Shown here one piece after another: positions 1,377 to 34,933 of a stretch of 54,667 nt of DNA. The stretch comes from Arcobacter sp. LC1 (GTDB taxonomy: Bacteria; Campylobacterota; Campylobacteria; Campylobacterales; Arcobacteraceae), in the NCBI GenBank assembly GCA_021378565.1, contig JAACJU010000002.1, positions 143,777 through 198,443 of the forward strand. The letters are read 5' to 3'. The notes below the pieces were generated by a model, which ran no database searches, was not told the origin of the DNA, and saw nothing but the letters and a program-made list of their open reading frames with translations. Within the stretch, counting starts at the first letter, position 1, and each line of letters opens with the position of its first letter. The position numbers and the translations under genes were made by a program.

Positions 1377-3368
1377 ATGTTTTTTAGATTAGTTTTGTTG
1401 ATTATACTACCACTTATGATTTTTGCAAAAGAGAACTATTATTATAGTTTTATAAATGCTAAGGGTAAGCTGATTAGCGTTAGAAAAAAAGATATGATAA
1501 CACAAGGTTTTCAAAAATTAAAATACATAAATACCTTACTAAGAGAAGGTAAAATCGTTAAGGCCAAAAATGAGATTGCTCTTTTTAAAAAGGATAATAA
1601 AGTAAAAATTTTAAATTCTGATATACTTTTATTAGATGCGAAAATTTTATTAAGTACTAAGTTGTTAGGCGATGCAAAAAAAGCAGATGATGTTTTGGAG
1701 CTTGGAATTGATTCTTCAACAATATATGAAAATGATTTGGCAAAAGCTTATTTGCTTTTGGCTAAGGCAAATATAAAATTAAATAAAATAAAAAAAGCTA
1801 GATTTTATGCTAAAAGTGTAATTGATAATTTTAAAGATCCTTATATTGTAGCCTTGGGAAAAATTGCTTATGCTGAAACTTATGCTGCTAGATTAGATTA
1901 TAATGGTGCAATAAGAATACTTTATGGGGCGCTTATAAAAACAAACGATATAAAGGTTGCAGATCTTCTTGGAGATGAACTTTTCAATGTCTATGTTTTA
2001 AATAAACAAAGAAAAAAAGCATATTCTTTAATAAACCAAATTATGGATGGAAGCAAAGATTTTTATATAAAACACCTAAGTTTAGCAAAAAGAAAAATAA
2101 AGATTTTACAAACACATAATATGCCAAAATTTGCTGTAAGAATAATTAAAACTTTAATCAAAGAAACAAAAGATACTAAGCTAAAAGATAAATTAAATTT
2201 TGAATTAGCTGGAATTTATATGTCAATGTATGATAAGACTCCAAAATATTTAAATAAAGCAAAAAAAATATATAGATCATATTTAGCTTATGGCAAGAAA
2301 AGTATATATGAGAAAAAAGCCCAAATGTATTTGGATGAAATTTTAATGAGAGAAGGTGAAATTTCTACTGTTATGGTTGTAAAGAGATATAAAGATTCAG
2401 TGATTATGAAACAAAAAGCTTTACTTCAAGAATTGTTAGTTTATAAAAAAAAGAAAGATTTTGAAGATATAATAAAATCTGAAAAAGTTTATAGACAGAT
2501 TTCAGATAGAGTTGCTAGGCGTTTTGATTATCCTTCTGTTCAGGCAATTTTTAATATGGTAGACATTTTAAAATTTAGAACTCTAGCAAAAGATGGTAAG
2601 TGTCAAGAAATAAATAGATATATACCTATTACAAATCAAACAGTTTTTGACAATTTGGAAAAAAATAAAAGTGATTTAAAAAGTCTTTTTGTTTGTTTAA
2701 GCGATTATCCAAAGCTTAGTTCTTATAAAAAACTAAAGCATGTTTATGTAACTAAAAAAAATGTTTTAATTTATAGATATTTAGAAAAGATGGCATATAA
2801 ATTGGGTAAAAGCCGAGATGCTTATAAATACTCAATATCAGTTGATACTTTAGGCACACAAGAAGATAAGAAAAAAGAATTTTTAGATAAATTCAAAGTT
2901 TTTTTGCAAACTAAGAACCCAAAATTTATAAAAAAGTTTTTTATTTATGCTTCAAAGCATAAAGATTATATAGAGTATAATCAAAATAATCCTGTAATTA
3001 TAGATTTTTATTATCAGTATTATTTATATTTATTGCAAAATAATAAAAAATTACAAGCTAGAATTATTTTAGATAAATTGTATAAAAAACAAGTAGAATA
3101 TAAAGCTAGGGTATATTCTCCTTTTGTGGAGCTTGAGCTTGCCGAAGAAGAGAGTGAGAATAAAAATTATAAAAAAGCCTTGGTTTATTTAGAACAAGCA
3201 CTAAAGTTTAATAAGTCTAATAAAAATCTTCCAAAAATTTACTATAAAGAATCAAAATTTTATGGTTTTCTAAAAGAGCCTGAGAAGAAAAAAGAAGCTA
3301 TTAGAAAATGCAAAAATATAAAAGGGCTAGATGGAAATATGTATAAAAAAATGTGCGATTTGCTATGA
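1377..3368 (+). CDS. Secreted TPR-rich protein in flagellar operon (PflA-like candidate)
   Basis: This 663-residue protein begins with a clear signal peptide (hydrophobic residues 2-16, then A-K-E). The rest is Lys-rich, mostly helical and built of repeated helix pairs resembling TPR units, for example around residues 125-155, 265-300 and 600-640. It sits between flhB and fliI, 12 bases after the first and overlapping the second, so it is very probably a flagellar protein. In Campylobacter, PflA is a periplasmic TPR protein that scaffolds the motor stator disk; size, export signal and repeats fit that role, but I could not align it to PflA. A ribosome binding site GAAGG precedes the ATG. Confidence 0.6.
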   Translation: MFFRLVLLIILPLMIFAKENYYYSFINAKGKLISVRKKDMITQGFQKLKYINTLLREGKIVKAKNEIALFKKDNKVKILNSDILLLDAKILLSTKLLGDAKKADDVLELGIDSSTIYENDLAKAYLLLAKANIKLNKIKKARFYAKSVIDNFKDPYIVALGKIAYAETYAARLDYNGAIRILYGALIKTNDIKVADLLGDELFNVYVLNKQRKKAYSLINQIMDGSKDFYIKHLSLAKRKIKILQTHNMPKFAVRIIKTLIKETKDTKLKDKLNFELAGIYMSMYDKTPKYLNKAKKIYRSYLAYGKKSIYEKKAQMYLDEILMREGEISTVMVVKRYKDSVIMKQKALLQELLVYKKKKDFEDIIKSEKVYRQISDRVARRFDYPSVQAIFNMVDILKFRTLAKDGKCQEINRYIPITNQTVFDNLEKNKSDLKSLFVCLSDYPKLSSYKKLKHVYVTKKNVLIYRYLEKMAYKLGKSRDAYKYSISVDTLGTQEDKKKEFLDKFKVFLQTKNPKFIKKFFIYASKHKDYIEYNQNNPVIIDFYYQYYLYLLQNNKKLQARIILDKLYKKQVEYKARVYSPFVELELAEEESENKNYKKALVYLEQALKFNKSNKNLPKIYYKESKFYGFLKEPEKKKEAIRKCKNIKGLDGNMYKKMCDLL

Positions 3369-16420: not shown

Positions 16421-16798
16421 CTATCGTTTGGATTTTAGCGTATCACCAATATAAAGCGTAACAGATACAAAATTTGCTAGTAGTGCACCGCCTGAAAGTG
16501 ATATAATTAATCCTATGATTTCGTTATCTATATGATAAGCATAAAAAGCTATTGTCCAAACAAATGCTGCTAAAATTAGCTGAATATCAGCAACTAAGCT
16601 AGTTGCTAATAATATTGAACCTGTTTGTGTTTTGTCTCCTAGCTTTAATGTTGTCGCAATTATATTTATGACAATGGCTGCAAATAATTCATATTTACTA
16701 TGATGTGTTAAGCTTGATAATTCTCCATAAAAAAACCCAAAGTTTAAGGTCATAGAAAAAATTATAAAAAACCCTGAAATTACTTTATCTAAGTTCAA
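16421..16798 (-). CDS. Small conserved-looking membrane protein (possibly DUF6394)
   Basis: The 125-residue protein has about four hydrophobic helices with polar turns (GELSSLTHHSKYELF, KLGDKTQTGS) and a basic C-terminus. I think it belongs to the DUF6394 family found in Campylobacterota but cannot confirm this. The start codon is TTG, whose TTGA overlaps the stop of the upstream FMN gene, so translation is probably coupled; the next Met is at residue 16, inside the first helix. Placement before the K+ channel suggests membrane or ion physiology, which is only an inference. Confidence 0.6.
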   Translation of the reverse strand: MNLDKVISGFFIIFSMTLNFGFFYGELSSLTHHSKYELFAAIVINIIATTLKLGDKTQTGSILLATSLVADIQLILAAFVWTIAFYAYHIDNEIIGLIISLSGGALLANFVSVTLYIGDTLKSKR

Positions 16799-18516
16799 TG
16801 TATTGGCTCTGAATCTTTTTTCAATCTTAATCTTGCATCAAATACCTCACAGATATCATCATAAACATTTTGATTTTTGTCAATAAAAATTAAGTTTTTA
16901 TGATTTAAATCTTTGACATTTTTAAGCCCCATAACTGCCAATAGTCCTTTTACATTTTTTAATAAGTTTCTGTGATAACTACTTACAAAATTTGAATGTC
17001 TTGTTACAAAATATTTTTTTCTTTTAGCTTTATTTTGAGTAGCTAAACCAACTGGGCATTCTTTTCCATTTATTCCTGCGCAGTATCTAGCTCTTATACA
17101 ACCCGCACTCATCATAAATCCTCTAGCAATTTGTAAAAAATCAGCACCAACAGCTAAAAGTATAAGCACATCATCAGGAGTTAAGACTTTTCCACTAGCT
17201 ACGATTTTTAACTTGTCTCTAATACCTAAATTTCTTAGTGTTTTATCAACTAAAAATATAGCATTTTTAACTTCAAGTCCTATTCGCTCCATCATTTCTA
17301 AAGGCGCTGTAGCTGAGCCTCCACTTCCTCCATCAACTGTGATAAAGTCAGGATACCCTCTACCTTCTTTGATTCTTTTTTTGATTTCTTGTGCATAAGG
17401 CAAGATATTGCTTTGGTCACTTATAACTATTTTGATGCCAACTGGCTTAGATGATAGTTCTTGTAACTGCTCTATAAAATCAAATAATTGCTCAACATTA
17501 TTTGCATAAGGAAAACGATTTGGAGAAAATAAATCTTTGTAAGGCTCAACTCCACGATAATATGCAATTGCTGGAGTTACTTTATTTCCTATTAGTTTAC
17601 CTCCACCTTGTTTTGCACCTTGAGCTATTTTTATCTCAGTCATTTTACAAAATCTCATAACTTTTTTATATCTTAAAGGATCAAATTTTCCGTGTTTGTC
17701 TCTAGATCCGTAAAGCCCTGAACTTATTTGATAAATAACATCAGGCATATCAACAGGCACATGTTTTGGAAAGTTTTCTAAGGGTGCGTCCCAATTTATT
17801 CTATAAAATCTTTCTAGCTTTTCATCATAAGAATAAGTCTCAGATGATAAGTCTTTTTTAAAAAGCATTCTTTTGTAAAGCTCAGTTGCTGTAAAGCCAT
17901 TAAATACTTTTTTTGTTATATCTTTTATCCTTTTTTGGTAAGCCTTACCTTCAACTATTGTCATATATTTTTCATCATAAGTTTGGTGAGTAAATAAGAA
18001 GTTTGAAGTTAGCCCACCTTCTCCTGTGTTTATAGGAAAATTACCCAAATAAGCACCCTTTGAAAATGCTCTAGTTCCCTCAGGTGAGATTGAACCATCA
18101 CTCATAGCACTTCGCCCTAAAATTGACTTGGTAATAAAAGGCATTTTTTTATCTGCTCCAAAGGTAACAGAAAAATCATTTTCAACTTCATTGTCATTTA
18201 ACACAAAAGTTGCATGCTTTAATAAAAATTTAGGAGCTGGTAATTGCTGAGTGGGTGAAAAGGAAGCATAATTTGGAATATCTCTAGCAGCTCTATAAAC
18301 CCAGTCTAGTTTATCTTTTGATTCAAAAAACTTTTCATCTCCAAAATATTGTCTAAAAGGTTCTCTAAATTCTTCAAAAAAATACCTAAGTCGCCCAATT
18401 ATTGGGTAGTTCACCAGTAACTGATGCCTTCTTTGAATATATTTGTCATAAACAAACCAATTAATTAAAATTAAAACAACAATAACTGTAACTACTTCAC
18501 CGATTGAAATTCCCAT
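16795..18516 (-). CDS. FMN-binding glutamate synthase-like protein
   Basis: The 573-residue protein has an N-terminal membrane anchor (residues 5-21) and then the central/FMN-binding part of glutamate synthase. Visible motifs are GAKQGGGKLIGNKVTP, ITVDGGSGGSATAPLEMMERIG and, near the end, GCIRARYCAGINGKECPVGLATQ with cysteines in the place of the Fe-S ligands. It lacks the glutaminase and C-terminal domains, so it is one of the stand-alone proteins whose in vivo reaction is uncertain. The ATG at 18516 has AGGAAG six bases upstream; a GTG at 18522 would add two residues. It starts just after the EamA stop. Confidence 0.85.
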   Translation of the reverse strand: MGISIGEVVTVIVVLILINWFVYDKYIQRRHQLLVNYPIIGRLRYFFEEFREPFRQYFGDEKFFESKDKLDWVYRAARDIPNYASFSPTQQLPAPKFLLKHATFVLNDNEVENDFSVTFGADKKMPFITKSILGRSAMSDGSISPEGTRAFSKGAYLGNFPINTGEGGLTSNFLFTHQTYDEKYMTIVEGKAYQKRIKDITKKVFNGFTATELYKRMLFKKDLSSETYSYDEKLERFYRINWDAPLENFPKHVPVDMPDVIYQISSGLYGSRDKHGKFDPLRYKKVMRFCKMTEIKIAQGAKQGGGKLIGNKVTPAIAYYRGVEPYKDLFSPNRFPYANNVEQLFDFIEQLQELSSKPVGIKIVISDQSNILPYAQEIKKRIKEGRGYPDFITVDGGSGGSATAPLEMMERIGLEVKNAIFLVDKTLRNLGIRDKLKIVASGKVLTPDDVLILLAVGADFLQIARGFMMSAGCIRARYCAGINGKECPVGLATQNKAKRKKYFVTRHSNFVSSYHRNLLKNVKGLLAVMGLKNVKDLNHKNLIFIDKNQNVYDDICEVFDARLRLKKDSEPIH

Positions 18517-18518
18517 TA

Positions 18519-19397
18519 TCACTTCCTAGATACTAAATATCCGCTAAAAATAATTAATGCAATACCAGCCAAAATATAAATGTTAGGTATAGCATCACCT
18601 AATAGTGTTCCCAAAAATATTGAAATTATTATATTCGAATAACTTATAGTTCCGATTATACCAACTTTTGTGCTGAAGTATGCTTTTGTCATAAAGATTT
18701 GTGCACAAGTTGCAAAAATTCCTAAAAAAAGTATATAAATCCACTCAATACCTTTTGGCATTATAAAAGGAGACAAAATAAAATCAAATTCTTTGCTGTG
18801 ATAAAAATTAGCTAAAACCATCAAAATCAAAGGCCCTAGCGTTCCTATTATCATAAAAGACAAAACAATAGCGCGACCTTCATAATAAGCGCTTAGTTTT
18901 TTTATAGTTGTATAAGCAAGTCCCGCTCCTAATGCACAAAAAATACCTAGCCAATCATTTTTATTTAGATTATCTAGGTTAAATCCTGTAATCATAAGAA
19001 CACCAAAAAAACCAAGCATTATCCCAAACCAAGCTTTTACAGACAATTTTTCTTTTAGCCAAAAAAATGCAAAAATAGCTGAGAAAAGTGGAGAGGCTTT
19101 TGAAAAAGTCATAGCTTCAGCTAGAGGTATTTTTGTGATATTGTAAAAATACATTAAAAGCGCAATAAATCCTATTAAGCCCCTTAGCGTAAGCAAAATA
19201 AATCTACCACCTTCTTGAGATAGGGGACGTTTATATATGGAGTAAACTATTATAATAACTCCTAAAATATTTCTAAAAAATACAATTTCTACGGAGTCAA
19301 GATTTGGGCTAAGAAGTTTTGCAAAAGCGCCAACAAGAGCAAAGAAGATTGACGCTATAAGCATATTGATTATGCCTTTTTTCATTGATGTATCCAT
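18519..19397 (-). CDS. EamA/DMT-family permease
   Basis: The 292-residue protein has ten hydrophobic helices in two halves, each with the EamA pattern: residues 13-140 with PLAEAMTFSKASPLFSAIFA, and 150-285 with GIIGTISYSNIIISIFLGTLLGD. Members export metabolites or amino acids; the substrate here is not deducible. A good AGGA lies seven bases before the ATG. It is the first gene of an eight-gene minus-strand run ending with pyrF. Confidence 0.85.
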   Translation of the reverse strand: MDTSMKKGIINMLIASIFFALVGAFAKLLSPNLDSVEIVFFRNILGVIIIVYSIYKRPLSQEGGRFILLTLRGLIGFIALLMYFYNITKIPLAEAMTFSKASPLFSAIFAFFWLKEKLSVKAWFGIMLGFFGVLMITGFNLDNLNKNDWLGIFCALGAGLAYTTIKKLSAYYEGRAIVLSFMIIGTLGPLILMVLANFYHSKEFDFILSPFIMPKGIEWIYILFLGIFATCAQIFMTKAYFSTKVGIIGTISYSNIIISIFLGTLLGDAIPNIYILAGIALIIFSGYLVSRK

Positions 19398-22700: not shown

Positions 22701-22731
22701 AATACTAAACTAATTTTATTTAGTGTTTTTT
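22701..22731. terminator. Bidirectional hairpin between HNH-like gene and ydeP-like gene
   Basis: AATACTAAA (22701-22709) pairs with TTTAGTGTT (22719-22727) with one G-T pair, and a T-run follows on the plus strand. It lies between two convergent genes and overlaps the end of the ydeP-like frame, so it can serve both. Confidence 0.6.
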
Positions 22732-24950
22732 AGGCTTATATCAATAAATTTATAAGCTGGAGTAAAACTTTTTTTATCATGGTGTTCTATGGATATTAAA
22801 GGATTGGCTTCAGGAAAATAAGCTCCTGCGCAACCTTGCTTTATATCATAAGATATTATTTCAAACCCTTTGACACTTCTTCTTATATTATCTTTGCTGT
22901 GCGAATAAATATCAACTAAGTCGCCATTTTTAAAGCCAAGTAATTCTATGTCTTTTGGATTAATAAAAATAATTTTTCTTTTATTTTTTATACCTCTATA
23001 TCTATCATCTTTAGCATAAACAGTTGTATTAAATTGATCATGCGAACGCATAGTCATTAACGCTAGGTGCTTAGAGTTTAGTTTAAGATTTGGTATAAGA
23101 TTGCTTGAGAAATTTGCTTTTTTCGTGTCTGTATTCCATATTCTTTTGCTTGCAAGGTTTTCTAGGACAAAGCCAGAGGAGTTTTTTATTTTTTTATTAT
23201 AGTCTTTAAAGATTGGTAAAACTTCTTCAATTTTTTCTCTTATTTTATCATAATCACTAATTAAGTCTAAAAAATCAATTTTATTTTTTCCTAAAGTAGC
23301 ATCTGCAATTTTAGCAATAATTTCACTTTCAGATTTTAAAAATGAACTTATTGGTTTGTTTCTTCCTTGTGAACTATGAACTATACTCATAGAATCTTCG
23401 ACACTAAGACTTTGTTTGCCAGAGCTTTGAATATCAATCTCAGTTCTTCCAAGACAGGGTAAGATTAGGCTAGATTTTCCGCAAAGCAAGTGACTTTTAT
23501 TTATGTGCGTTGAAATGTAAACACTTAAATCACAAGCTTCCAAGGCCGCGTAGCAAAGTTTTGAATCAGGCGCGGCTTCTGCAAAATTTCCACCAAGAGC
23601 TATAAAAACTTTATTTTTTTCTTTTGCTATAACTTTTATAGCATTTACTACATTTACCCCATGTTTTCTTGGCGATTTAAATGAAAAAGCTTTGTCTATA
23701 CTTTTTAAAAAATCTTCTTTTGGCATTTCATCAATACCCACAGTTCTATCACCTTGGACATTACTATGGCCTCTTACGGGGCAAGCTCCAGCGCCACTTT
23801 TTCCGATATTTCCTTTTAATAATAATAAATTTATCACTTCTTCGATGCTAGCAACTCCATGTTCTTGTTGCGTTAATCCCATAGCCCAACAGCAAATAGT
23901 TTTATCTGATTCTAGGTATAAATCTGCAATTTCTTTAATTTCTTTTTTACTAAGTGAAGAGTGTTTGACTAAGTTTTTAAAGTCTTGAGATAAAATATGT
24001 TTTTCATAATCTTCAAAACCATGACAATGTTTTTCTATAAATTCAAAGTCTAGTTTAGTTTTATGATGTTTTAAAATATAAAAAATTACAGCTTGTAAAA
24101 CAGCCATATCGCTACCTAAACTTACTTGATAATAATGTGTACTTATTTGACTTGGAGTTTTAAAAAGCATTGATTTGAAATCTTTTGGATGGATAAATCC
24201 TAGCAATCCTGCTTCTTTTAAAGGGTTAAAACTTAAAATTTTAGCACCATTTTTCCTAGCTTCTTGTAAGCTTGCTAGCATTCTAGGATGGTTTGTTGCT
24301 GGATTTTGTCCAAAAACCATGATAAGTTTTGCTTTTTTAAAATCTTCTAATTCTACTGTACCTTTTCCTACTCCTATATTTTTATTCATAGCAACACTGC
24401 TCGATTCATGGCACATATTAGAGCAATCTGGAAAATTATTAGTTCCTAGAAGTCGTCCAAAAAGTTGGTATAAAAAGGCTGCTTCGTTTGAAGCTCTACC
24501 TGAGGTATAAAGTATTGCATCATCTGGAGTTTTAAGTTTTTTTAGATGTTTTGCAATAAGTGAAAATGCCTTATCCCAAGAGATGGCTTCATAAATATCT
24601 TTTTGTTTATTGTAGCTTAGCGGCTCACAAAGTCGCCCTTTTTGACTAAGTTCATAAACTTCAAGTTTAGCTAAATCTTTTACTTTATTGTTAGCAAAAA
24701 ATTCTTTTGAAGCTCTTTGCTTGGTTGTCTCATATGTTATAGCTTTGACTCCATTTTCACAAAATTCTGCAAAAGAGCGTTCTTTTGGATTAGGGTCAGG
24801 CCAAGCACAACCAGGACAATCACAGCCCTTAACTTGGTTTAGTTTTAAAAGACTTTTACTTGATTTTATAAAGTCATCTCTTAGAATAAATTTTATGGAG
24901 GAGCTAAGCGCTCCTGCTCCTCCTGCATATGTTAAATTTTCTTTATTCAT
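22716..24950 (-). CDS. FdhF/YdeP-family molybdopterin oxidoreductase
   Basis: The 744-residue protein belongs to the formate dehydrogenase-alpha-like YdeP group. It has the N-terminal KGCDCPGCAWPDP motif of that group, the mid-part PDCSNMCHESSS followed by VFGQNPATNHPRM, and a C-terminal molybdopterin-binding part with MTMRSHDQFNTTVYAKDDRYRG. There is no twin-arginine signal, so it is cytoplasmic. YdeP-type enzymes have uncertain substrates (YdeP of E. coli is tied to acid resistance). I start it at the ATG 24950, which has GGAG six bases upstream; a TTG at 24962 opens a longer frame. It is the last gene of the ridA-to-ydeP run, 25 bases after the unknown 802-residue gene. Confidence 0.88.
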   Translation of the reverse strand: MNKENLTYAGGAGALSSSIKFILRDDFIKSSKSLLKLNQVKGCDCPGCAWPDPNPKERSFAEFCENGVKAITYETTKQRASKEFFANNKVKDLAKLEVYELSQKGRLCEPLSYNKQKDIYEAISWDKAFSLIAKHLKKLKTPDDAILYTSGRASNEAAFLYQLFGRLLGTNNFPDCSNMCHESSSVAMNKNIGVGKGTVELEDFKKAKLIMVFGQNPATNHPRMLASLQEARKNGAKILSFNPLKEAGLLGFIHPKDFKSMLFKTPSQISTHYYQVSLGSDMAVLQAVIFYILKHHKTKLDFEFIEKHCHGFEDYEKHILSQDFKNLVKHSSLSKKEIKEIADLYLESDKTICCWAMGLTQQEHGVASIEEVINLLLLKGNIGKSGAGACPVRGHSNVQGDRTVGIDEMPKEDFLKSIDKAFSFKSPRKHGVNVVNAIKVIAKEKNKVFIALGGNFAEAAPDSKLCYAALEACDLSVYISTHINKSHLLCGKSSLILPCLGRTEIDIQSSGKQSLSVEDSMSIVHSSQGRNKPISSFLKSESEIIAKIADATLGKNKIDFLDLISDYDKIREKIEEVLPIFKDYNKKIKNSSGFVLENLASKRIWNTDTKKANFSSNLIPNLKLNSKHLALMTMRSHDQFNTTVYAKDDRYRGIKNKRKIIFINPKDIELLGFKNGDLVDIYSHSKDNIRRSVKGFEIISYDIKQGCAGAYFPEANPLISIEHHDKKSFTPAYKFIDISLKNTK

Positions 24951-24975
24951 TTGAAGCTCCAAATCATTTCTTTCT

Positions 24976-27384
24976 TTATTTCTCTACAATTCCACCAGCA
25001 TTTTCTCTTGAATTTTTACTTGGTTTAACAAAAATAGAGCTTGAAATTTCTTTCACTTCTTCCCACATTTTTGTATCAACTAGTACTCCATCTCTTATTG
25101 TATGTTTTAGATTTTGTTCTAGCTCTTTTGCAGGTATACAAAGATCATAAGCTAAACAATCTTTTTTGAAATCATCTTTGCTAATTTCTATTTTTAAAGT
25201 ATCTCCTGCTTTATCTTTTCCATCTTTATTAAAATGAACATGAGGAAACTCTTCATTTTTATTTATTGTATATTCTACAAATTCTTTTGTGCAAGAATCA
25301 TAAAAACTAAATTTTGCACTAAGACCTTTTTTAGCTAATCTTCTTAATTGTCTATAAACAAGATGTTGATTATGGCAAGCTTTAATCTCAATAGTGATAT
25401 TAGAATAATTTTGCATATAATCAAGTGCATAAGCTGTGATTAGCTGAATATATAATAAAACACTTCCTTCATTTAAATTAATATTTAATTTAGGACCATT
25501 TTCTTTGATGCAAATTTCTTGACTTTTATTATTTTTAAGATTTTTTAAGGCATGTAAATAATGTTTGAAACCATTAAGCCCAACCATTTGTGAATCTATT
25601 ACCATATGTGAGATTATATCAGCTTCACCTCTGTCAAGTTGAAGAGCAGAAAATGATTGCATGCATAAAGATCTTAGCTCATTTTTTGATACTACTATTT
25701 TGCTTTTGTCATCTAAAATATTTTTTTCAAGTATTGGAAATAGCCACTCATCTTCAGTAATCTCATCTAACAATGGTGCAGATTGGAAGAATGTTGCTTG
25801 AACCCATTTGTCAGATCTTGGGTCAAATTTAGTAGCTCCAAAAATTGCTAATTTAGCTCTTAATAAATCAAGTGCAAAAAAGTCATCTCCTAATAAGTTT
25901 GCTTGAATATCACCCATATGGCAAGCTCCAAGTGTCCAAACTCTTCTTAAAATTGATGAATAACTTGGATTTTTTAGTAAAAATTTACTAGCAAATTCTT
26001 CACTTGGTTCATCTTTGATTTTGTCATATAAGCTTGAAGCTGCTCTAGCAATTCCTAAAGGCATTTCAAGTTCAGCGCCTTCATCAACACCTCTAACACC
26101 TAATCTTGGTTCACCTTTTTCAGCTGAACTATACCAAAAATGGCAAGAGTTTTCTTTCTTAGAAAAGTCAATATTTAAAGCCCAATAGTATTTTCGTTCA
26201 AGAAGAGTTTTAAGTTCACAAATTTTAACACTTGATAACTCCAAAGGTTTTTCACTAACATTCATATGATTTTCAAACTCATCAACCAAACTAGGGTAAA
26301 GCTCTAAAATGCAAGCTAATAGAATTTCTTGAGCATCATAAGAATATTTTTCAGTAAAACTCATTAAGTCTTTCCATTTGTAATTTTGTCCCATTACAGC
26401 TTTTATTTTTTGTATGATTTCATCTAATTCTTTATTAGCTTTTTTGTTTAAGCTATCTTGTTGCTTATCAATTATGATTAAATCTTCAAGATGTTTTTGA
26501 GCTCGTTTTAGAAAAGAAAGTATTTCATAAGCTTTTTTATCAGTTATTTTTTTAGAACTTGCTTTTGCAATAGCTAGCTCTCTTTGGTACATCCAAGTAT
26601 CGATTAGTTTAGAATGCTTAATCATATAAGGAGCCATTCCAAGTCCAGTTGCATTTCCAACACCTAAATATCTAGCTAAATTTTTAGCTAGTCTAACTGA
26701 CTTTTTGCCACCTTTATTTTTAGCAAGGAAATTAACTAAATCAATACTAAATTCTCTTAAAATATAAACAGCACACATTTCAGCTTCAAAGCTTTGTGCA
26801 AAATCTTTATAATTTTTTGTATTATCAAAATCATTTATACCAAATTTTCCAGACCCATAAACTGCTGTAGTTCTTAGTATATATCCTACTTTTTTAAGCT
26901 CAAGTTCATCTGGTTGTTTTCCACTAGCTAAGGAGTCAACTAAGTGAGAAAAGATTCTTACACTTTTATTTGCTCTTGCTAAAACTAAGGCTTTATTACA
27001 ATTTCTTCCAGCTTCTTGCAAAGGCACATTTGCGTCAAGTCGCTCAAGTAAATCTTCACTCACTTCACCTTTTATTAAAGTAAAAGTAACATCCCATTTA
27101 TTTGCAATTACTCTATCAGTTCGCTCATCATCTTTAATATGCCTTGAAAAAATTACTAAGTTATAGATTCCATTTGGAGTTTGAATTTTATAAATTGCTT
27201 TTCCGTAGCCTTCTTTGCATAAATCCCAAAGACTTTTTGAAATTTGCCAATTTTCTCTAGCCATTTTTCTCACTAAACTTCTAGTAAAACTAATTCTACT
27301 TTGTTGCATTGCACCCATTCTTCCTAAATTCATAACACAACTTGCATCTCTTGTTTGTGCAGTAGTACTTGATTCTTTGCTCAT
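24976..27384 (-). CDS. Unrecognised 802-residue protein in catabolic cluster
   Basis: I do not recognise a named family with certainty. No signal peptide or membrane helix is visible. The first ~330 residues carry blocks that look conserved: RTDRVIANKWDVTF, ANVPLQEAGRNCN, LRTTAVYGSGKFGI and GNATGLGMAPYMI. The middle is helical and charged. From Val565 (SKNELRSLCMQSFSALQLDRGEADI, then VGLNGFKHYL and later HNQHLVYRQLRRLAKKGL) the tail faintly resembles either DUF3726 or the N-terminal part of Ldh_2-type malate/lactate/imine reductases. The ATG 27384 follows AAAGGAAG and is preferred to a TTG at 27423. It lies between the BCCT gene and the ydeP-like gene, so a role in the same catabolism is likely. 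Confidence 0.7.
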   Translation of the reverse strand: MSKESSTTAQTRDASCVMNLGRMGAMQQSRISFTRSLVRKMARENWQISKSLWDLCKEGYGKAIYKIQTPNGIYNLVIFSRHIKDDERTDRVIANKWDVTFTLIKGEVSEDLLERLDANVPLQEAGRNCNKALVLARANKSVRIFSHLVDSLASGKQPDELELKKVGYILRTTAVYGSGKFGINDFDNTKNYKDFAQSFEAEMCAVYILREFSIDLVNFLAKNKGGKKSVRLAKNLARYLGVGNATGLGMAPYMIKHSKLIDTWMYQRELAIAKASSKKITDKKAYEILSFLKRAQKHLEDLIIIDKQQDSLNKKANKELDEIIQKIKAVMGQNYKWKDLMSFTEKYSYDAQEILLACILELYPSLVDEFENHMNVSEKPLELSSVKICELKTLLERKYYWALNIDFSKKENSCHFWYSSAEKGEPRLGVRGVDEGAELEMPLGIARAASSLYDKIKDEPSEEFASKFLLKNPSYSSILRRVWTLGACHMGDIQANLLGDDFFALDLLRAKLAIFGATKFDPRSDKWVQATFFQSAPLLDEITEDEWLFPILEKNILDDKSKIVVSKNELRSLCMQSFSALQLDRGEADIISHMVIDSQMVGLNGFKHYLHALKNLKNNKSQEICIKENGPKLNINLNEGSVLLYIQLITAYALDYMQNYSNITIEIKACHNQHLVYRQLRRLAKKGLSAKFSFYDSCTKEFVEYTINKNEEFPHVHFNKDGKDKAGDTLKIEISKDDFKKDCLAYDLCIPAKELEQNLKHTIRDGVLVDTKMWEEVKEISSSIFVKPSKNSRENAGGIVEK

Positions 27385-27487: not shown

Positions 27488-29080
27488 TTAAGCCTTTTTA
27501 GGATCTTTTCCTTCTCTCGCTTCTTTTTCTTGTTCTCTTGCCATTTTCATAGCAAGTTGTGGACCATTCCATAAAGTTGGTAAAATTATAATCGAAACTG
27601 GAACGGCCGCTATTATAATAAACGATTGAATGGCTGAGACGCCACTAGAGCCAATAGAAATAAGTGCTATTGCCATAGCGCCCATCAAAATTCCCCAAAA
27701 AGCTCTCAAATATGGATGTGGATGTCTTCCACCACCTGTAACAACTGAGATAGTATAAGTGATTGAATCACCTGTTGTAACAATAAAAGCAACACTTAAA
27801 ATTAAAAATAATATTGACATAAGAGTTCCCCAAGGTAAAGCTTCAGTTATTGCTAAAAGTGCAGCTGGAAGATTAAATCCAGTAAAAGGACCTGAGATTA
27901 TTCCAGGATGTGCAATCTCAGCAGCTAGTCCTGAACCACCTACAATTGTGTACCAAAAAAATGTGATTAAAGGTGCTAAGATTGAAACTGAAAGGATTAG
28001 CGTTCTAACACTTCTACCTCTTGTAATTGTTGACATAAAAACAGCCATTATAGGACCAAATCCCATAAACCAACCCCAGAAAAATACAGTCCAAGCATTT
28101 ACCCAACCTGTGTCACCTCTGTATAAAGCCATAGGCACAAGATGTTGTATGACTGAACCTAAACCTTGAGTAAAGCTATCTATTATAAATTTTGTTGGTC
28201 CAAAAAGGAATATAAATACCATTAAAAATATTGCTAAAATTGTATTCCATTTTGAGAGAAAAGTAATCCCTTTTGCAAGTCCTGTTAAAGCACTAACTGT
28301 ATAAATTAACATAGCAGCTAAAACAATTATAACTTGCGCGGTAAAATTATCAGGTATATGAAATAAAAATTTTAAACCATAAGAAATTTGAAGTCCCAAA
28401 AATCCAATGGGTCCAATAGTCCCAGCAGCCGCTCCAACTATACAAAAAGCATCAACTACAGAACCAACCCAAGAATCTATAATTCTTTGTCCAAAAAGAG
28501 GATAAAGAATAGTTCTAGGTTTTAAAGGTAAGCCTTTGTCGTAATGCAAATGCATCAAAACAATAGTTGTCAAAGTTCCTAAAATTGCCCAAGCTAAAAA
28601 TCCCCAGTGCATAAAAGAAGTTGATAGTGCATTTACAGCTTTTTGAAAAGGATCACTTGTAACTGCAAACATAGGATCAGGAGACATAAAATGCGCAATA
28701 GGTTCAGCTCCAGCCCAAAAAACTCCACCACCAGCAAGTAAAGTACACATAATAATTGAAAGCCATTTAAAGGTGCTCATTTCAGGTTTACCATCTTTGG
28801 TTCTTCCTAAAACTGCATTTCCTCCTGTGCTAATTGCTAATACTAGACCTATAATAAAAGTAGCTAGTAATAAAATTTGCCAATAAGCTCCAAAAAATTG
28901 CGTAGAGTATTTAAACCCTAAATTTACGACACTTGTCATAAAATGCGAATCAAAAATAGTAAATATTACAAATACAAGTAAAAAACCAGCACTTAAAATA
29001 AGAGTTACTTTGTCAAGCTCTTTAAGACTGTAACTTTTTTCTGAAATATTTTCTTCAATAAAATCTTTCTTGTGTTCCAT
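27488..29080 (-). CDS. BCCT-family transporter
   Basis: The 530-residue protein has twelve membrane helices and BCCT hallmarks such as GGGVFWAGAEPIAHFM (near 117-132), SFMHWGFLAWAI and WTVFFWGWFMGFGP. BCCT carriers take up quaternary-ammonium compounds (betaine, choline, carnitine) or related zwitterions. In the helix-8 signature the second and third Trp seen in betaine carriers are Phe here, so the substrate may differ. The charged cytoplasmic tail ends EKEAREGKDPKKA. AAAGGA precedes the ATG. It lies ten bases after the M19 gene and is most simply the uptake system for the cluster's substrate. Confidence 0.92.
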   Translation of the reverse strand: MEHKKDFIEENISEKSYSLKELDKVTLILSAGFLLVFVIFTIFDSHFMTSVVNLGFKYSTQFFGAYWQILLLATFIIGLVLAISTGGNAVLGRTKDGKPEMSTFKWLSIIMCTLLAGGGVFWAGAEPIAHFMSPDPMFAVTSDPFQKAVNALSTSFMHWGFLAWAILGTLTTIVLMHLHYDKGLPLKPRTILYPLFGQRIIDSWVGSVVDAFCIVGAAAGTIGPIGFLGLQISYGLKFLFHIPDNFTAQVIIVLAAMLIYTVSALTGLAKGITFLSKWNTILAIFLMVFIFLFGPTKFIIDSFTQGLGSVIQHLVPMALYRGDTGWVNAWTVFFWGWFMGFGPIMAVFMSTITRGRSVRTLILSVSILAPLITFFWYTIVGGSGLAAEIAHPGIISGPFTGFNLPAALLAITEALPWGTLMSILFLILSVAFIVTTGDSITYTISVVTGGGRHPHPYLRAFWGILMGAMAIALISIGSSGVSAIQSFIIIAAVPVSIIILPTLWNGPQLAMKMAREQEKEAREGKDPKKA

Positions 29081-29090
29081 CTTTTTTCCT

Positions 29091-30083
29091 TTACGTTAAT
29101 TTTGTCAAACTGTTTTCTAAGAATTTCAACCAATTCTCACCCATAACTTTAACTATTTCTTCTGCTTTAAAGCCATACTTTTCTAGACCTAAATAGATAT
29201 TTTTCATGCCACTTGGGTTTTTAAACCAGGGCAAGCCATCAGGCCAACCACTATCATTTGCATTTCCTTCGCCGTAATCCATATCCTTAGACCAAGTACC
29301 GTTTCTCATCCACTCTAGAATTGATTTTGGTTGGTTAAGACATAAATCACTTCCAATGCCTAGGGCATCTATGCCAATCAAATCAGCAGTTTTTGCAATC
29401 ATTTGACAAAAATCGTCCAAGGTGCAAGCACTTTTGTTTGGCAAGTGAAAAGGATATAAAGAAAATCCAAGTAAGCCACCTTTTTTAGCCAAGGCTTTTA
29501 AAACTTCATCAGATTTATTTCTAAGTCCTTTGTGTGCAAATAAAGGATTTGCATGACTTATGCAAATAGGGCGTGAAGAAATATCAATAGCTTCAAGAGT
29601 TGATTTTTGGGCGCTATGTGACATATCAATTATCATGCCAACTCTATTCATTTCTTTTATAGCTTGCTTACCAAATCTTGTAATCCCGCTATCTGTATTT
29701 TCATAGCACCCAGTTGCAAGCAAGCTTTGATTGTTGTAAGTTAATTGCATAATCAAAAGTCCAAGTTTTCTCATGACTTCAATCATTCCAATTTCACAAT
29801 CAATTGGGCTACAATTTTGCGCCCCAAAGAAAATCCCTACTAAATTGTTTTTCTTAGCAAGTAAAATATCATCAGCATTCATAACAGGCATTATCAAATC
29901 AGTATTTTGTTCAAATAGTTTGTTCCACTTTGCAAAGCCACTAAGAGTTTGTCTTGTGTCTTCGTGGTAAACTAAAGTTACGTGAACAGCTGTAATATTT
30001 GCATCTTTTAAGCCTTGAAAATATTTTCTGTCAGCTTTGCAATATTGTAAACCGTCAATAATTATTTGATTTTCATACATCAT
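29091..30083 (-). CDS. M19 membrane-dipeptidase-like protein with altered metal site
   Basis: The 330-residue protein follows the renal dipeptidase (peptidase M19) fold: NRVGMIIDMSHSAQ (His156), RPICISHANP (His177), GGLLGFSLYP and IGSDLC (Asp246) align with the family. Other ligands are changed: the HxD of the DGHND motif reads DGLQY (10-14), the bridging Glu of the EGG motif is a Phe (GIFFGAQN), and the His of LTHS is Tyr116. It may therefore hydrolyse something other than a dipeptide, with a single metal, or be non-hydrolytic. There is no signal peptide, so it is cytoplasmic. It sits six bases after the aldehyde dehydrogenase gene. Confidence 0.82.
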   Translation of the reverse strand: MMYENQIIIDGLQYCKADRKYFQGLKDANITAVHVTLVYHEDTRQTLSGFAKWNKLFEQNTDLIMPVMNADDILLAKKNNLVGIFFGAQNCSPIDCEIGMIEVMRKLGLLIMQLTYNNQSLLATGCYENTDSGITRFGKQAIKEMNRVGMIIDMSHSAQKSTLEAIDISSRPICISHANPLFAHKGLRNKSDEVLKALAKKGGLLGFSLYPFHLPNKSACTLDDFCQMIAKTADLIGIDALGIGSDLCLNQPKSILEWMRNGTWSKDMDYGEGNANDSGWPDGLPWFKNPSGMKNIYLGLEKYGFKAEEIVKVMGENWLKFLENSLTKLT

Positions 30084-30089
30084 GTTTTC

Positions 30090-31538
30090 CTAATATGGCT
30101 TTTGATAAGCTGTTTTTACAACAGTATAAAATTCTTTTGCATAAGAGCCTTGTTCTCGTGGTCCAAAGCTTGATTCTTTTCTACCTCCAAAAGGTACATG
30201 ATAATCAGTTCCAGCTGTTGGCAGATTTACCATCACACAACCACTTTTAACATTTTTTTTGAATTTTGCTGAGTATTCTAAGCTTTTAGTTACAATTCCA
30301 GCAGTTAAGCCAAATCTTGTATCATTTACAGTTTTTATAGCTTCGCATAAATTTTTAACTTTAATAATACAAGCTAGGGGAGCAAAAACTTCTTCTTGAT
30401 TTATATCCCATTCGTTTTTTGTGTCTGTAAATAAAGTAGGTTCCATATAAAAACCTTCTTTTTCTAGTTTTAGCTGTTTCCCACCAAAAACTAAAGTAGC
30501 GCCCAGCTCTTTTCCTCTTTGTACCCATTTTAAGTTTGATTGTAATTGTTTTTCATCAACAACAGGACCCATAAAGTTACCCTCTTCAAGAGCATGTCCA
30601 ACTTTTAGTGTTTTAAGTTTTTTTGTAAGTGCAGATAAATATTTATCATAAATACCTTCAAAAACAACTAATCTAGCTGAAGCTGTACATTTTTGTCCAG
30701 TTCCACCAAAAGAGCCACCAATAGTGCAAGTTATTGCAGTGTCAATATCAGCGTCATCAGCAATAACAAGGGCATTTTTACTTCCCATTTCAAGTTGGCA
30801 TTTTACAAAATTTGCAGCAGTTGCTTTTGCAATACCACGTCCAACTTCAACTGAACCTGTAAATGAAAGTGCTGAAATATCTTTTGAATTTATCAAAGCT
30901 TCCCCAGCACTTCTACCAGAGCCTAAAATTAGATTAAAAGTTCCATTTGGCAAATCATGCTTGTCTATTATTTTTGCTAATTCCACAGCTGAAGCAGGAG
31001 TGACATTTGCAGGTTTCCAAATAACAGCATTTCCATAACAAAGTGCAGGAGCTATTTTCCAAACAGCAGTTGCAGTTGGGAAGTTCCAAGGAGATATGAT
31101 ACCAACAACACCTACAGCTTCTCTTGTGATTTCTATGTTAACTCCTGGTCTAACAGAGCGAGCGTTCTCACCAATTTGTCTTAGCACTTCAGCGCTATAA
31201 TATTGAAAAAATTGTCCAGCTCTATATATCTCACCTTTTCCCTCAGCCTTAGTTTTGCCTTCTTCACGTGCTAGAAGTGTTCCAAGTTCCTCGCTTCTTT
31301 GGATTAATTCATCTCCAATTGCTTGTAAGATATTTACTTTTTTTTCTAGTGGAGTTGCTTCCCAAAGAGGTTGAGCGACATTTGCTGCTTTTATAGCTTG
31401 TTCTACTTGAGACACACTAGCTTGAGCGAAATCTCCGATTTTATCTGAAATATCAGAAGGGTTAATATTTACAATAGTTGAAGTTCCCTCGAGCCATTTT
31501 CCGTCTATATATAAACTTTTTTTATAATCTGTTTGCAT
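30090..31538 (-). CDS. Aldehyde dehydrogenase, 2-oxoglutarate-semialdehyde type
   Basis: The 482-residue NAD(P)-dependent aldehyde dehydrogenase has catalytic Cys284 (GGTGQKCTASARLVV), general base Glu250 (CQLEMGSKN), the IISPWNFPTAT cofactor stretch and FTGSVEVGR. The C-terminal GTDYHVPFGGRKESSFGPRE, followed by EFYTVVKTAY, closely recalls 2-oxoglutarate (alpha-ketoglutaric) semialdehyde dehydrogenases of hydroxyproline, arabinose and glucarate breakdown. I infer that the pathway delivers 2-oxoglutarate; other semialdehydes are possible. AAAGGA precedes the ATG and it lies nine bases after ridA. Confidence 0.9.
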   Translation of the reverse strand: MQTDYKKSLYIDGKWLEGTSTIVNINPSDISDKIGDFAQASVSQVEQAIKAANVAQPLWEATPLEKKVNILQAIGDELIQRSEELGTLLAREEGKTKAEGKGEIYRAGQFFQYYSAEVLRQIGENARSVRPGVNIEITREAVGVVGIISPWNFPTATAVWKIAPALCYGNAVIWKPANVTPASAVELAKIIDKHDLPNGTFNLILGSGRSAGEALINSKDISALSFTGSVEVGRGIAKATAANFVKCQLEMGSKNALVIADDADIDTAITCTIGGSFGGTGQKCTASARLVVFEGIYDKYLSALTKKLKTLKVGHALEEGNFMGPVVDEKQLQSNLKWVQRGKELGATLVFGGKQLKLEKEGFYMEPTLFTDTKNEWDINQEEVFAPLACIIKVKNLCEAIKTVNDTRFGLTAGIVTKSLEYSAKFKKNVKSGCVMVNLPTAGTDYHVPFGGRKESSFGPREQGSYAKEFYTVVKTAYQKPY

Positions 31539-31547
31539 TTTTTTCCT

Positions 31548-31937
31548 TTACTTGCATTGTGCATAAACTACTAATTCAACTAGCATCTCTTCTCTAGCTA
31601 GTCCAGCTACGATAACCGCAGCACGGTTTGGATAGGGTGCTTTAAAATACTTAGCATAATTTTCGTTGAAAGTTTTTAAGTATTCTCTTTTTGTTACATA
31701 AATAAGAACTTGCAATACATTGTCTGTATTAAGTTTTGCAGATTCTAGTGTATGAACTAGGTTGTCCAGCACTTGCTTACTCTGAGCCTCTATCCCACCA
31801 TCAACAACTTTACCTTCCTTGTTTATAGGAATTTGCGCAGTATATAAAACATTATTTGCTGTGATTGCCCACTCTAGGGGTGCTTTTGAGGCAAAAAGCT
31901 CTGTCTTTATAGCTTTTTTTAGCTCTTTGTCTTGCAT
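31548..31937 (-). CDS. RidA/YjgF-family imine deaminase
   Basis: RidA-family proteins hydrolyse reactive enamines and imines left by amino-acid breakdown. The 129-residue protein has ANNVLYTAQIPIN, SKQVLDNLVHTLESAKLNTDNVLQV and PYPNRAAVIVAGLAREEMLVEL; however, the usual CxxR-type Arg context is modified (PNRAA is present, supporting an active RidA-like site). I start it at 31937, where AAAGGAG lies six bases before ATG; a TTG at 31967 opens a longer frame. First gene of the cluster, it fits a pathway with an imine intermediate. Confidence 0.88.
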   Translation of the reverse strand: MQDKELKKAIKTELFASKAPLEWAITANNVLYTAQIPINKEGKVVDGGIEAQSKQVLDNLVHTLESAKLNTDNVLQVLIYVTKREYLKTFNENYAKYFKAPYPNRAAVIVAGLAREEMLVELVVYAQCK

Positions 31938-31995
31938 TTTTTCTCCTTTAAAAAATAATTCAGTCAAAGTTTACTTGATAATTACTTAATGAATA

Positions 31996-32166: not shown

Positions 32167-32814
32167 TTAAATAGTATATTTTTTTACTATATTTTCTATA
32201 TAGTTTATTATCTTGTCAGCATTTAAAAGAGCATTTACTTTGTCTTGTTTTAAAACAGATTTTAAAATATTTTTATGAAAGTTTTTTACAGCTTCATGAT
32301 TTTCTTTTGTAGCGTAGTAATAAAAAAATCTCCGTGATAAGCCTTGTGAATTTCGCAAACTCTCAAAGATAAAATAATTTTTTGAAGCCTTTCCTAGAAC
32401 TTCTTGTCTTTTTTCTAACCATGCAAAAACTTCTTTATCACTAAGATTGTCAGCTTTATCAAGTAAATCTTGTATGCTATCTTTGTCAGTTTGAGTTAAA
32501 CGCATAATAGCGCATTCAACACAAGTTTTTAAAATCGGGCGTCTAGCTTCTAATAATTGCAATTGTAAGCTAGCATTCATTTGTGGTATCATAATCCCTG
32601 CTTTTGAAATATTTACTAAAAATCTTTTCGATAAAAGCAAAAGAGCTTCTCTTACAGGTGTTCGCCCAGCTCCTAGCATTTCGCATATTTTTTTTTCAGT
32701 CAATATGCTTCCTGGTTCTATTTCACAAAATATTATTTTTTTCTCTAGTTGTTCATAAACTTGCTCTGTTAAGGTTTTGTCTTTTGAACGTTTTATTTTT
32801 TTTACTTTTTCCAT
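32167..32814 (-). CDS. GntR-family (FCD) transcriptional regulator
   Basis: The 215-residue protein has the GntR winged helix at residues 10-75 (TLTEQVYEQLEKKI, EPGSILTEKKICEMLGAGRTPVREALLLLS) and a helical FCD-type effector domain after that. Such proteins usually repress a nearby catabolic operon until a small organic acid or amine binds. It is upstream of and on the same strand as the ridA-to-ydeP run and divergent from cmoA, so it probably controls that run. The FCD metal-binding His residues are not all obvious, so the effector type is uncertain. Confidence 0.88.
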   Translation of the reverse strand: MEKVKKIKRSKDKTLTEQVYEQLEKKIIFCEIEPGSILTEKKICEMLGAGRTPVREALLLLSKRFLVNISKAGIMIPQMNASLQLQLLEARRPILKTCVECAIMRLTQTDKDSIQDLLDKADNLSDKEVFAWLEKRQEVLGKASKNYFIFESLRNSQGLSRRFFYYYATKENHEAVKNFHKNILKSVLKQDKVNALLNADKIINYIENIVKKYTI

Positions 32815-34195: not shown

Positions 34196-34933
34196 ATGAA
34201 GTTAAAAAAAATTTACTTTTGTATTTTTATTTTTTGTATTTTTATTTTTGGTGCTAGTGCAAAAGATTTTTCAAATCAATATATTAGGCTAGAAAGTGTA
34301 AAAAATAATACTGCTAAAATAGCGCAAACGCATTTAAAAATAGGGCAAAGTGGGATAATAATACACAAGTATAGAAATACCAAATTGCAGTCTATTTTAT
34401 CAAATGCTATAGTTTTTAAAAGTAATGGCAATGGCTCTTATTTAAAACTTAGCCCATTTAATGATTTAGATCAAAGTGCTTTGCCAAAGTCTAAACTTAA
34501 GCCTCAAAGGGGTGATATTTTTATTTTAAATTATCTTTATCATAATTCTTTATTAATTGCACCAAATGAAGACAGTATAAAAGTTGTAAGAAATAAGTTT
34601 AATAATTTTAACTTTATTCAAGGAGATATTTTTGCAGCGTATTTGAAATTTCAAAATGAGCCATTTGCAAGCGAAGCTACCTTTAAAGCTTTTGCAAAAA
34701 CTCATAATCTTGGGACTATATTTTTTGTTATTGGAAATTATTCTTATATGCTTGATGCAAAAAGTTTTAAAATTTTACAAAAAACATACCTTTTTCATCA
34801 AGAAAAAAAACAAAGCCTACCTTTTTATACAAGAATTACAAATATAGAAAGTAATTTTTGGAATATTTCTTTTGAAAAAAATCATAAGCAATCTTATAAT
34901 TCTTATTATAAATATCTCATAGGAATAAAATAA
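34196..34933 (+). CDS. Secreted PgbA N-terminal-domain-like protein
   Basis: The 245-residue protein has a signal peptide (hydrophobic residues 6-20, then GASAKD) and a domain reading VKNNTAKIAQTHLKIGQSGIIIHK, then LKPQRGDIFILNYLYHNSLLIAPN. This matches my memory of the N-terminal domain of PgbA, the plasminogen-binding surface protein of Helicobacter. The charged C-terminal repeat part of PgbA is absent, so plasminogen binding should not be assumed. One base separates it from bcp, and its stop overlaps the glcD start. Confidence 0.7.
   Translation: MKLKKIYFCIFIFCIFIFGASAKDFSNQYIRLESVKNNTAKIAQTHLKIGQSGIIIHKYRNTKLQSILSNAIVFKSNGNGSYLKLSPFNDLDQSALPKSKLKPQRGDIFILNYLYHNSLLIAPNEDSIKVVRNKFNNFNFIQGDIFAAYLKFQNEPFASEATFKAFAKTHNLGTIFFVIGNYSYMLDAKSFKILQKTYLFHQEKKQSLPFYTRITNIESNFWNISFEKNHKQSYNSYYKYLIGIK
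34220..34249 (+). repeat. 15-bp in-frame tandem duplication in signal peptide
   Basis: TGTATTTTTATTTTT occurs twice in tandem, giving Cys-Ile-Phe-Ile-Phe twice in the hydrophobic core of the pgbA-like signal peptide. The unit is five codons, so gain or loss of a copy would keep the frame but change core length. Confidence 0.8.

Follow-up and report, generated by a model that had tools for sequence, protein, structure and literature searches.

The window analysed here, the whole stretch of 54,667 nucleotides from Arcobacter sp. LC1, contains an operon whose genes all lie on one strand, in the order GntR, RidA, aldehyde dehydrogenase (ALDH), M19, BCCT, fused protein and FdhF. We are concerned mainly with the fused protein, which occupies the following position among its neighbours:

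22716..24962, minus strand: molybdopterin oxidoreductase of the FdhF/YdeP family (TIGR01701, 868 bits versus 582)
24976-27384, minus strand: open reading frame of the fused protein, 802 residues from an ATG start
27488..29080, minus strand: BCCT-family (betaine/choline/carnitine) transporter, by profile match; syntenic in relatives
29091..30083, minus strand: amidohydrolase of the M19 membrane dipeptidase/dehydropeptidase family (E 4.7e-71)
30090..31538, minus strand: aldehyde dehydrogenase; the best models are alpha-ketoglutaric semialdehyde (alpha-KGSA) dehydrogenases, below the equivalog cut-off
31548..31967, minus strand: RidA/YjgF family (enamine/imine deaminase family), by family match
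32167..32814, minus strand: GntR/FCD regulator, with LysR instead in most other lineages

From RidA onward the smallest intergenic gap is about 6 nt and the largest 64-103 nt, according to which start codon is taken. The open reading frame at 24976-27384 is real, coding and conserved. An alternative TTG start, 39 nt upstream of the ATG, extends the protein to 815 residues, and a reading-frame check finds the plus strand of the same interval full of stops. The protein recurs at 54-56% identity, essentially full length, in five other Arcobacteraceae genomes among 100 relatives, one of them Poseidonibacter ostreae as judged by contig identity; the M19 gene and the fused gene are found in exactly the same six of these 100. 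All six Arcobacteraceae loci are colinear, and FdhF adjoins the fused gene in each. Across 84,980 species genomes (the genome_contigs scan) relatives are encoded at no fewer than 578 loci, and the bacterial carriers of the cluster comprise hundreds of species, mostly marine and including SAR11. A search of viral contigs found no relatives.

The fused protein consists of two parts, which we call the N-half and the tail:

25717..27384, minus strand: N-half, residues 1-556, a conserved enzyme-like domain of unrecognised family and fold
24976..25716, minus strand: tail, residues 557-802, a shortened, degenerate Ldh_2 fold (DUF3726)
25498..25692, minus strand: match to Pfam DUF3726 (PF12525), residues 565-629, 34.5 bits versus a gathering score of 22.1
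25363..25377, minus strand: CHNQH stretch, residues 670-674, of which the Cys alone is invariant

The fused gene lies in an operon, and its subunits are separate genes elsewhere. In most relatives an N-half gene (about 560-620 residues) lies next to a DUF3726 gene (about 190-265 residues), a possibility that a first-pass annotation of this DNA had proposed to check; examples are Vibrio, Photobacterium, Psychrobacter, Moritella, Halomonas, Marinobacter, Pseudomonas and Phaeobacter. Campylobacterota and Mesorhizobium carry the fused form, and on the N-half tree at least two separate changes of fused state are needed. Judging from this tree, the halves appear to have been fused at least twice, independently. 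Repeated fusion is a classic sign of two proteins acting as one complex, and the two independent fusions therefore argue that the N-half and DUF3726 work as one. The halves were modelled and aligned apart; a joint alignment misplaced the short DUF3726 rows. Mean identity is 49% for the N-half versus 26% for the tail, and the N-half is the better conserved at 39 of 39 loci.

A faint resemblance of the tail, from residue 565, to DUF3726 or to Ldh_2 oxidoreductases had been remarked upon, and both likenesses are borne out. The tail belongs to DUF3726 by score, here fused to the N-half, and this family is matched in all 46 members of our alignment; the literature that we searched contained no description of its function. 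The match of the window's tail to the Ldh_2 family itself (PF02615) is weak, at 14.0 bits, below the cut-off of 38.8. Nevertheless, the AlphaFold (AF2) model of the tail (pLDDT 92.5) has the Ldh_2 fold, with Foldseek E-values down to 2.6e-9 and a TMq of 0.67. Every one of its 27 PDB matches at E<=1e-3 is an Ldh_2-type dehydrogenase, and they include enzymes of the malate/lactate, ureidoglycolate, sulfolactate, diketogulonate and delta1-piperideine-2-carboxylate types. The tail thus shares the fold of malate, L-lactate and ureidoglycolate dehydrogenases and of delta1-piperideine-2-carboxylate reductase (3uoe, 1xrh, 1wtj), but it differs from them in its length and in its catalytic positions. 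At 247 residues, versus 319-364 in solved Ldh_2 relatives, it aligns with large gaps; it is about 90 residues shorter than a working Ldh_2 enzyme (about 330 residues), and its central nucleotide-binding segment is incomplete.

We take the catalytic residues of Ldh_2 enzymes to be the His in SHG and the His in SNHFG. The first of these positions is N604 in the window and is His in 5 of the 46 sequences; the second is N672, with Asn in 39 sequences and His in one. The HNQH stretch (H671-N-Q-H674), which the first-pass annotation had equated with SNHFG, does not restore them: H671 is replaced (by K, R, S, C and others) in 11 of the 46, H674 is unique to the window sequence, and the only invariants of the tail alignment are C670, two glycines and one Trp. 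On these grounds we do not accept HNQH as catalytic. What the tail retains is a truncated Ldh_2 fold, from which the Ldh_2 catalytic residues have been lost. Its fold is what speaks for the alternative that it is a working Ldh_2-type oxidoreductase in which HNQH is catalytic, and we consider this extremely improbable given the two lost His positions, the roughly 90 missing residues of the nucleotide-binding part, the score of 14 bits versus 38.8, and the full-length Ldh_2 genes that stand beside DUF3726 in some clusters. Because it is shortened, has lost the catalytic His positions and evolves much faster than the N-half, we regard the tail as a subunit of Ldh_2 descent with a structural or gating role.

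The full-length Ldh_2 genes adjoining DUF3726 are found in Mesorhizobium, Aminobacter, Arenicella and an Oceanospirillaceae bacterium. The adjoining homologues at L007:10390-11409, L058:3983-5056, L075:12492-13517 and L098:14222-15223 carry SYN, SYS or SCN for the SNH/HHF of working Ldh_2 enzymes, which suggests a divergent subfamily that may be ancestral to DUF3726.

The N-half is far better conserved than the tail. The impression of patterned, conserved blocks in the first half of the protein is confirmed by 90 invariant residues among its 556 positions in 46 sequences; these are rich in Arg, Trp, Tyr and Asp, with aromatic side chains frequent and His invariant at one position only. Equally, the N-half matches no family that can be named: residues 1-556 have no match in Pfam or NCBIfam, a Pfam scan of the 46 members yields only scattered chance families, and searches of the PDB with the whole chain (phmmer) and with the N-half profile give chance matches only. 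The chain as a whole thus matches no single characterised family. One PDB likeness at this locus, to the solved M19 amidohydrolase 2i5g (E 8e-59, the closest solved structure to the operon's M19), belongs to the neighbouring gene and not to the fused protein.

The AF2 model of the N-half is confident (pLDDT 90.6, pTM 0.92), and a Foldseek search of the PDB at a threshold of E<=1e-3 returns no fold match (best E 0.33, TM about 0.1); nor does a fold search of the BFVD viral models. Structure prediction and fold search, part by part, therefore give an Ldh_2 fold for the tail and, for residues 1-556, a predicted fold that is undescribed in the two collections searched, PDB and BFVD: a candidate new fold, which is less than proof of one. 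Within this model we define low-confidence loops as interior ten-residue blocks with mean pLDDT <80, and these are:

27085..27144, minus strand: residues 81-100, with invariant R88, D90, R91, V92, I93, A94, W97 and D98
26995..27024, minus strand: residues 121-130, with the motif P.QE.GR, including P121, Q123, E124 and R127
26815..26874, minus strand: residues 171-190, with the motif RTTA.YG.GK.G..D, including R171-T173, Y176 and K180

Of the 90 invariant residues, 23 fall in these blocks, which span 50 positions in all (odds ratio 5.6, Fisher p 1.5e-7). Low-confidence loops of this kind often become ordered only around a ligand or partner, and so the over-representation of invariant residues in them is as expected for a ligand site. 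It bears on whether the N-half might be no enzyme but serve the operon as a scaffold, a sensor or an assembly factor. Such a role would agree with the lack of any fold or family match, but it is very unlikely in view of the 90 invariant residues and their concentration in the loops, and because this is the sole gene of the operon left for the ring-attacking step described below. The N-half is the conserved, enzyme-like part of the fused protein, and it is much more likely that the N-half is catalytic and the tail a degenerate partner subunit than the reverse.

We turn to the company that the gene keeps. Among 87 N-half loci, many of them clipped by contig ends, the neighbourhood contains M19 at 76, ALDH at 71, BCCT at 69, LysR at 63 and RidA at 53. 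The gene set and order are the same in Vibrio, Photobacterium, Psychrobacter, Moritella, Halomonas and Marinobacter; Neptunomonas and Marinobacterium have a variant order, and Phaeobacter and Aminobacter have reduced gene sets. The Aminobacter cluster has a glycine-betaine-type ABC transporter where the window has BCCT. NAD-linked formate dehydrogenase genes lie directly downstream at the Halomonas loci (TIGR01591, 675 bits versus a cut-off of 666 in L071). To our knowledge, not all FdhF/YdeP-family proteins are formate dehydrogenases.

A distant branch, on pSymB of Sinorhizobium meliloti (L097:11941-15387), has an N-half at 25% identity, an Ldh_2-like partner and M19. Close by are a class-III aminotransferase and two RidA genes, and there is no aldehyde dehydrogenase. 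Because this branch keeps them, the N-half, the Ldh_2-like partner, M19 and RidA form the apparent core module. By its gene content the branch probably performs related chemistry on another substrate.

The module looks suited to releasing formate, an amine and a C5 semialdehyde from a betaine. We consider a reading to which we give about an even chance: that the fused protein unites in one chain the two subunits of an operon's committed enzyme, and that this operon degrades a betaine, most likely homarine (N-methylpicolinate), where we infer both substrate and reaction. BCCT would import the betaine, and GntR or LysR would sense it. With the tail to steady or gate it, the N-half would use O2 and a reductant to attack C5-C6 of the N-methylpyridinium ring, giving an N-formyl enamide, N-formyl-N-methyl-2-amino-5-oxopent-2-enoate (C7H9NO4). 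From this N-formyl-N-methyl dehydro-amino acid M19 would release formate; among the enzymes of the M19 family are dehydropeptidases, which cleave dehydro-amino-acid amides. RidA, a family that acts on enamines and imines, would hydrolyse the N-methyl enamine/imine to methylamine and alpha-KGSA, or else a reductase would save it as a precursor of N-methylglutamate. The aldehyde would go to 2-oxoglutarate (or N-methylglutamate) by way of the aldehyde dehydrogenase, and the formate would be oxidised by the formate dehydrogenase encoded alongside.

The scheme gives every enzyme of the operon a step, and its elemental balances are exact: homarine + O2 + 2[H] = C7H9NO4 for the ring opening, and homarine + O2 + 2[H] + 2 H2O = formate + methylamine + alpha-KGSA overall. 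The ring-attacking step is given to the N-half and DUF3726 because they are the sole component of the operon that has no other assigned role. The first-pass annotation had supposed a new enzyme that handles the cluster's key intermediate; what survives is its place in a catabolic cluster, as the sole unassigned enzyme, while a catalytic dehydrogenase tail does not. We can only guess at oxygenase chemistry, and do so by elimination, since the N-half has no recognisable oxygen- or flavin-binding signature (and likewise no metal signature), a single invariant His and no fold match.

A known system offers the same logic. In the trigonelline pathway of Acinetobacter baylyi (TgnAB-TgnD) an N-methylpyridinium ring is converted to an N-formyl intermediate, which is deformylated, and the aldehyde is oxidised. 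There the ring is attacked by TgnA and TgnB, a luciferase-like monooxygenase and a flavin reductase, whereas the N-half matches neither, having no Pfam or fold match to luciferase-like FMN monooxygenases or to flavin reductases. It is quite possible, though we would stop short of calling it probable, that the N-half founds an enzyme superfamily with an undescribed fold, which would open N-methylpyridinium rings by means other than a recognised oxygenase or flavin domain, with a dead Ldh_2-fold protein as obligatory partner, and with at least two branches (marine/proteobacterial at 38-60% identity, rhizobial at 25%).

The same operon logic could serve a different betaine, such as another N-methylated heterocycle carboxylate (e.g. 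trigonelline, N-methylproline or pipecolate betaine), given that the transporters indicate no more than 'betaine' and that the S. meliloti branch, with an aminotransferase but without ALDH, implies a family not tied to one substrate. We think this unlikely: the ALDH resembles alpha-KGSA dehydrogenases, and a 2-carboxylated N-methylpyridinium would account for formate, a C5 semialdehyde and an amine better than would trigonelline or saturated betaines. Moreover, occurrence in SAR11 and other marine bacteria fits homarine, a ubiquitous and abundant marine osmolyte.

Alternatively, the same complex might act on homarine independently of O2, opening the ring reductively or hydrolytically to formate and N-methylglutamate semialdehyde, and thence N-methylglutamate. 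This route, from homarine + 3 H2O, is redox neutral and balances exactly. The tail derives from NAD(P)H reductases, including delta1-piperideine-2-carboxylate reductase (1wtj), and the N-half is free of metal or flavin signatures. Ferrer-Gonzalez et al. (2026, Nat Microbiol, doi 10.1038/s41564-026-02313-7), as cited in PMC13390433, describe a conserved homarine pathway in which N-methylglutamate dehydrogenase takes part in homarine catabolism, and the O2-free route would suit organisms with that enzyme. However, cleavage at C5-C6 needs an oxidised C5, so that pure hydration is chemically strained, and in the DUF3726 tail the central segment is missing, as are both catalytic His positions. The host genome, moreover, has no mgd-type gene above cut-off. 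On balance we regard the O2-free route as possible but rather unlikely, and prefer the oxygen-dependent opening.

A sarcosine-oxidase-beta-family (soxB/mgdA-type) gene scores above cut-off in 21 of 34 operon-bearing genomes, a count that is only suggestive of N-methylglutamate dehydrogenase because the family includes true sarcosine oxidases. Among 100 Campylobacterota relatives, the host included, no such gene exceeds the cut-off; the route through that dehydrogenase therefore cannot run in the host as described, and we reject it there. In a small, related sample of genomes (G100-G133), those with RidA-less operons (L047, L050, L054, L057, L062, L085) all have a sarcosine-oxidase-beta-family gene, and the 13 genomes that lack this gene all have RidA in the operon.

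The operon of the published homarine pathway is reportedly named homABCDER. Its six genes would presumably fit RidA, ALDH, M19, N-half, DUF3726 and a regulator, which we treat as a lead only; our literature searches for homarine genes and for DUF3726 yielded no description. Betaine transport, marine distribution and the frequent N-methylglutamate-dehydrogenase-type gene of operon-bearing genomes fit the homarine pathway, while the host differs in lacking an mgd-type gene, and the Campylobacterota version in being fused, GntR-regulated and attached to FdhF. The operon itself is thus probably already known; our own contribution is the structural reading of its two unnamed proteins, one with a fold undescribed in PDB and BFVD and the other a dead Ldh_2 partner, together with the link to formate dehydrogenase and the fused version in Campylobacterota.

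Marine algae and animals contain homarine as one of their abundant osmolytes, and the difficult chemistry in its breakdown lies in the first attack on the ring. If the preferred reading is true, it names a testable catalyst for that attack in hundreds of species, including SAR11, and accounts for a dehydropeptidase, RidA and an alpha-KGSA-type dehydrogenase travelling together. DUF3726 would be given a function, that of a partner subunit with a degenerate Ldh_2 fold, and the trait would extend to Campylobacterota, where the natural fusion eases purification of the complex.

Elsewhere in the window, positions 1377-3368 hold an open reading frame of 663 residues that has no Pfam or NCBIfam match. 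Positions 16795-18522 encode a 575-residue protein with a lone, weakly matching glutamate-synthase domain, and we rejected it as an N-methylglutamate synthase (or glutamate synthase subunit) since that match is too weak. Finally, positions 34196-34933 encode a full-length homologue of the N-terminal domain of the Helicobacter plasminogen-binding protein PgbA (PGBA_N, E 2e-56).
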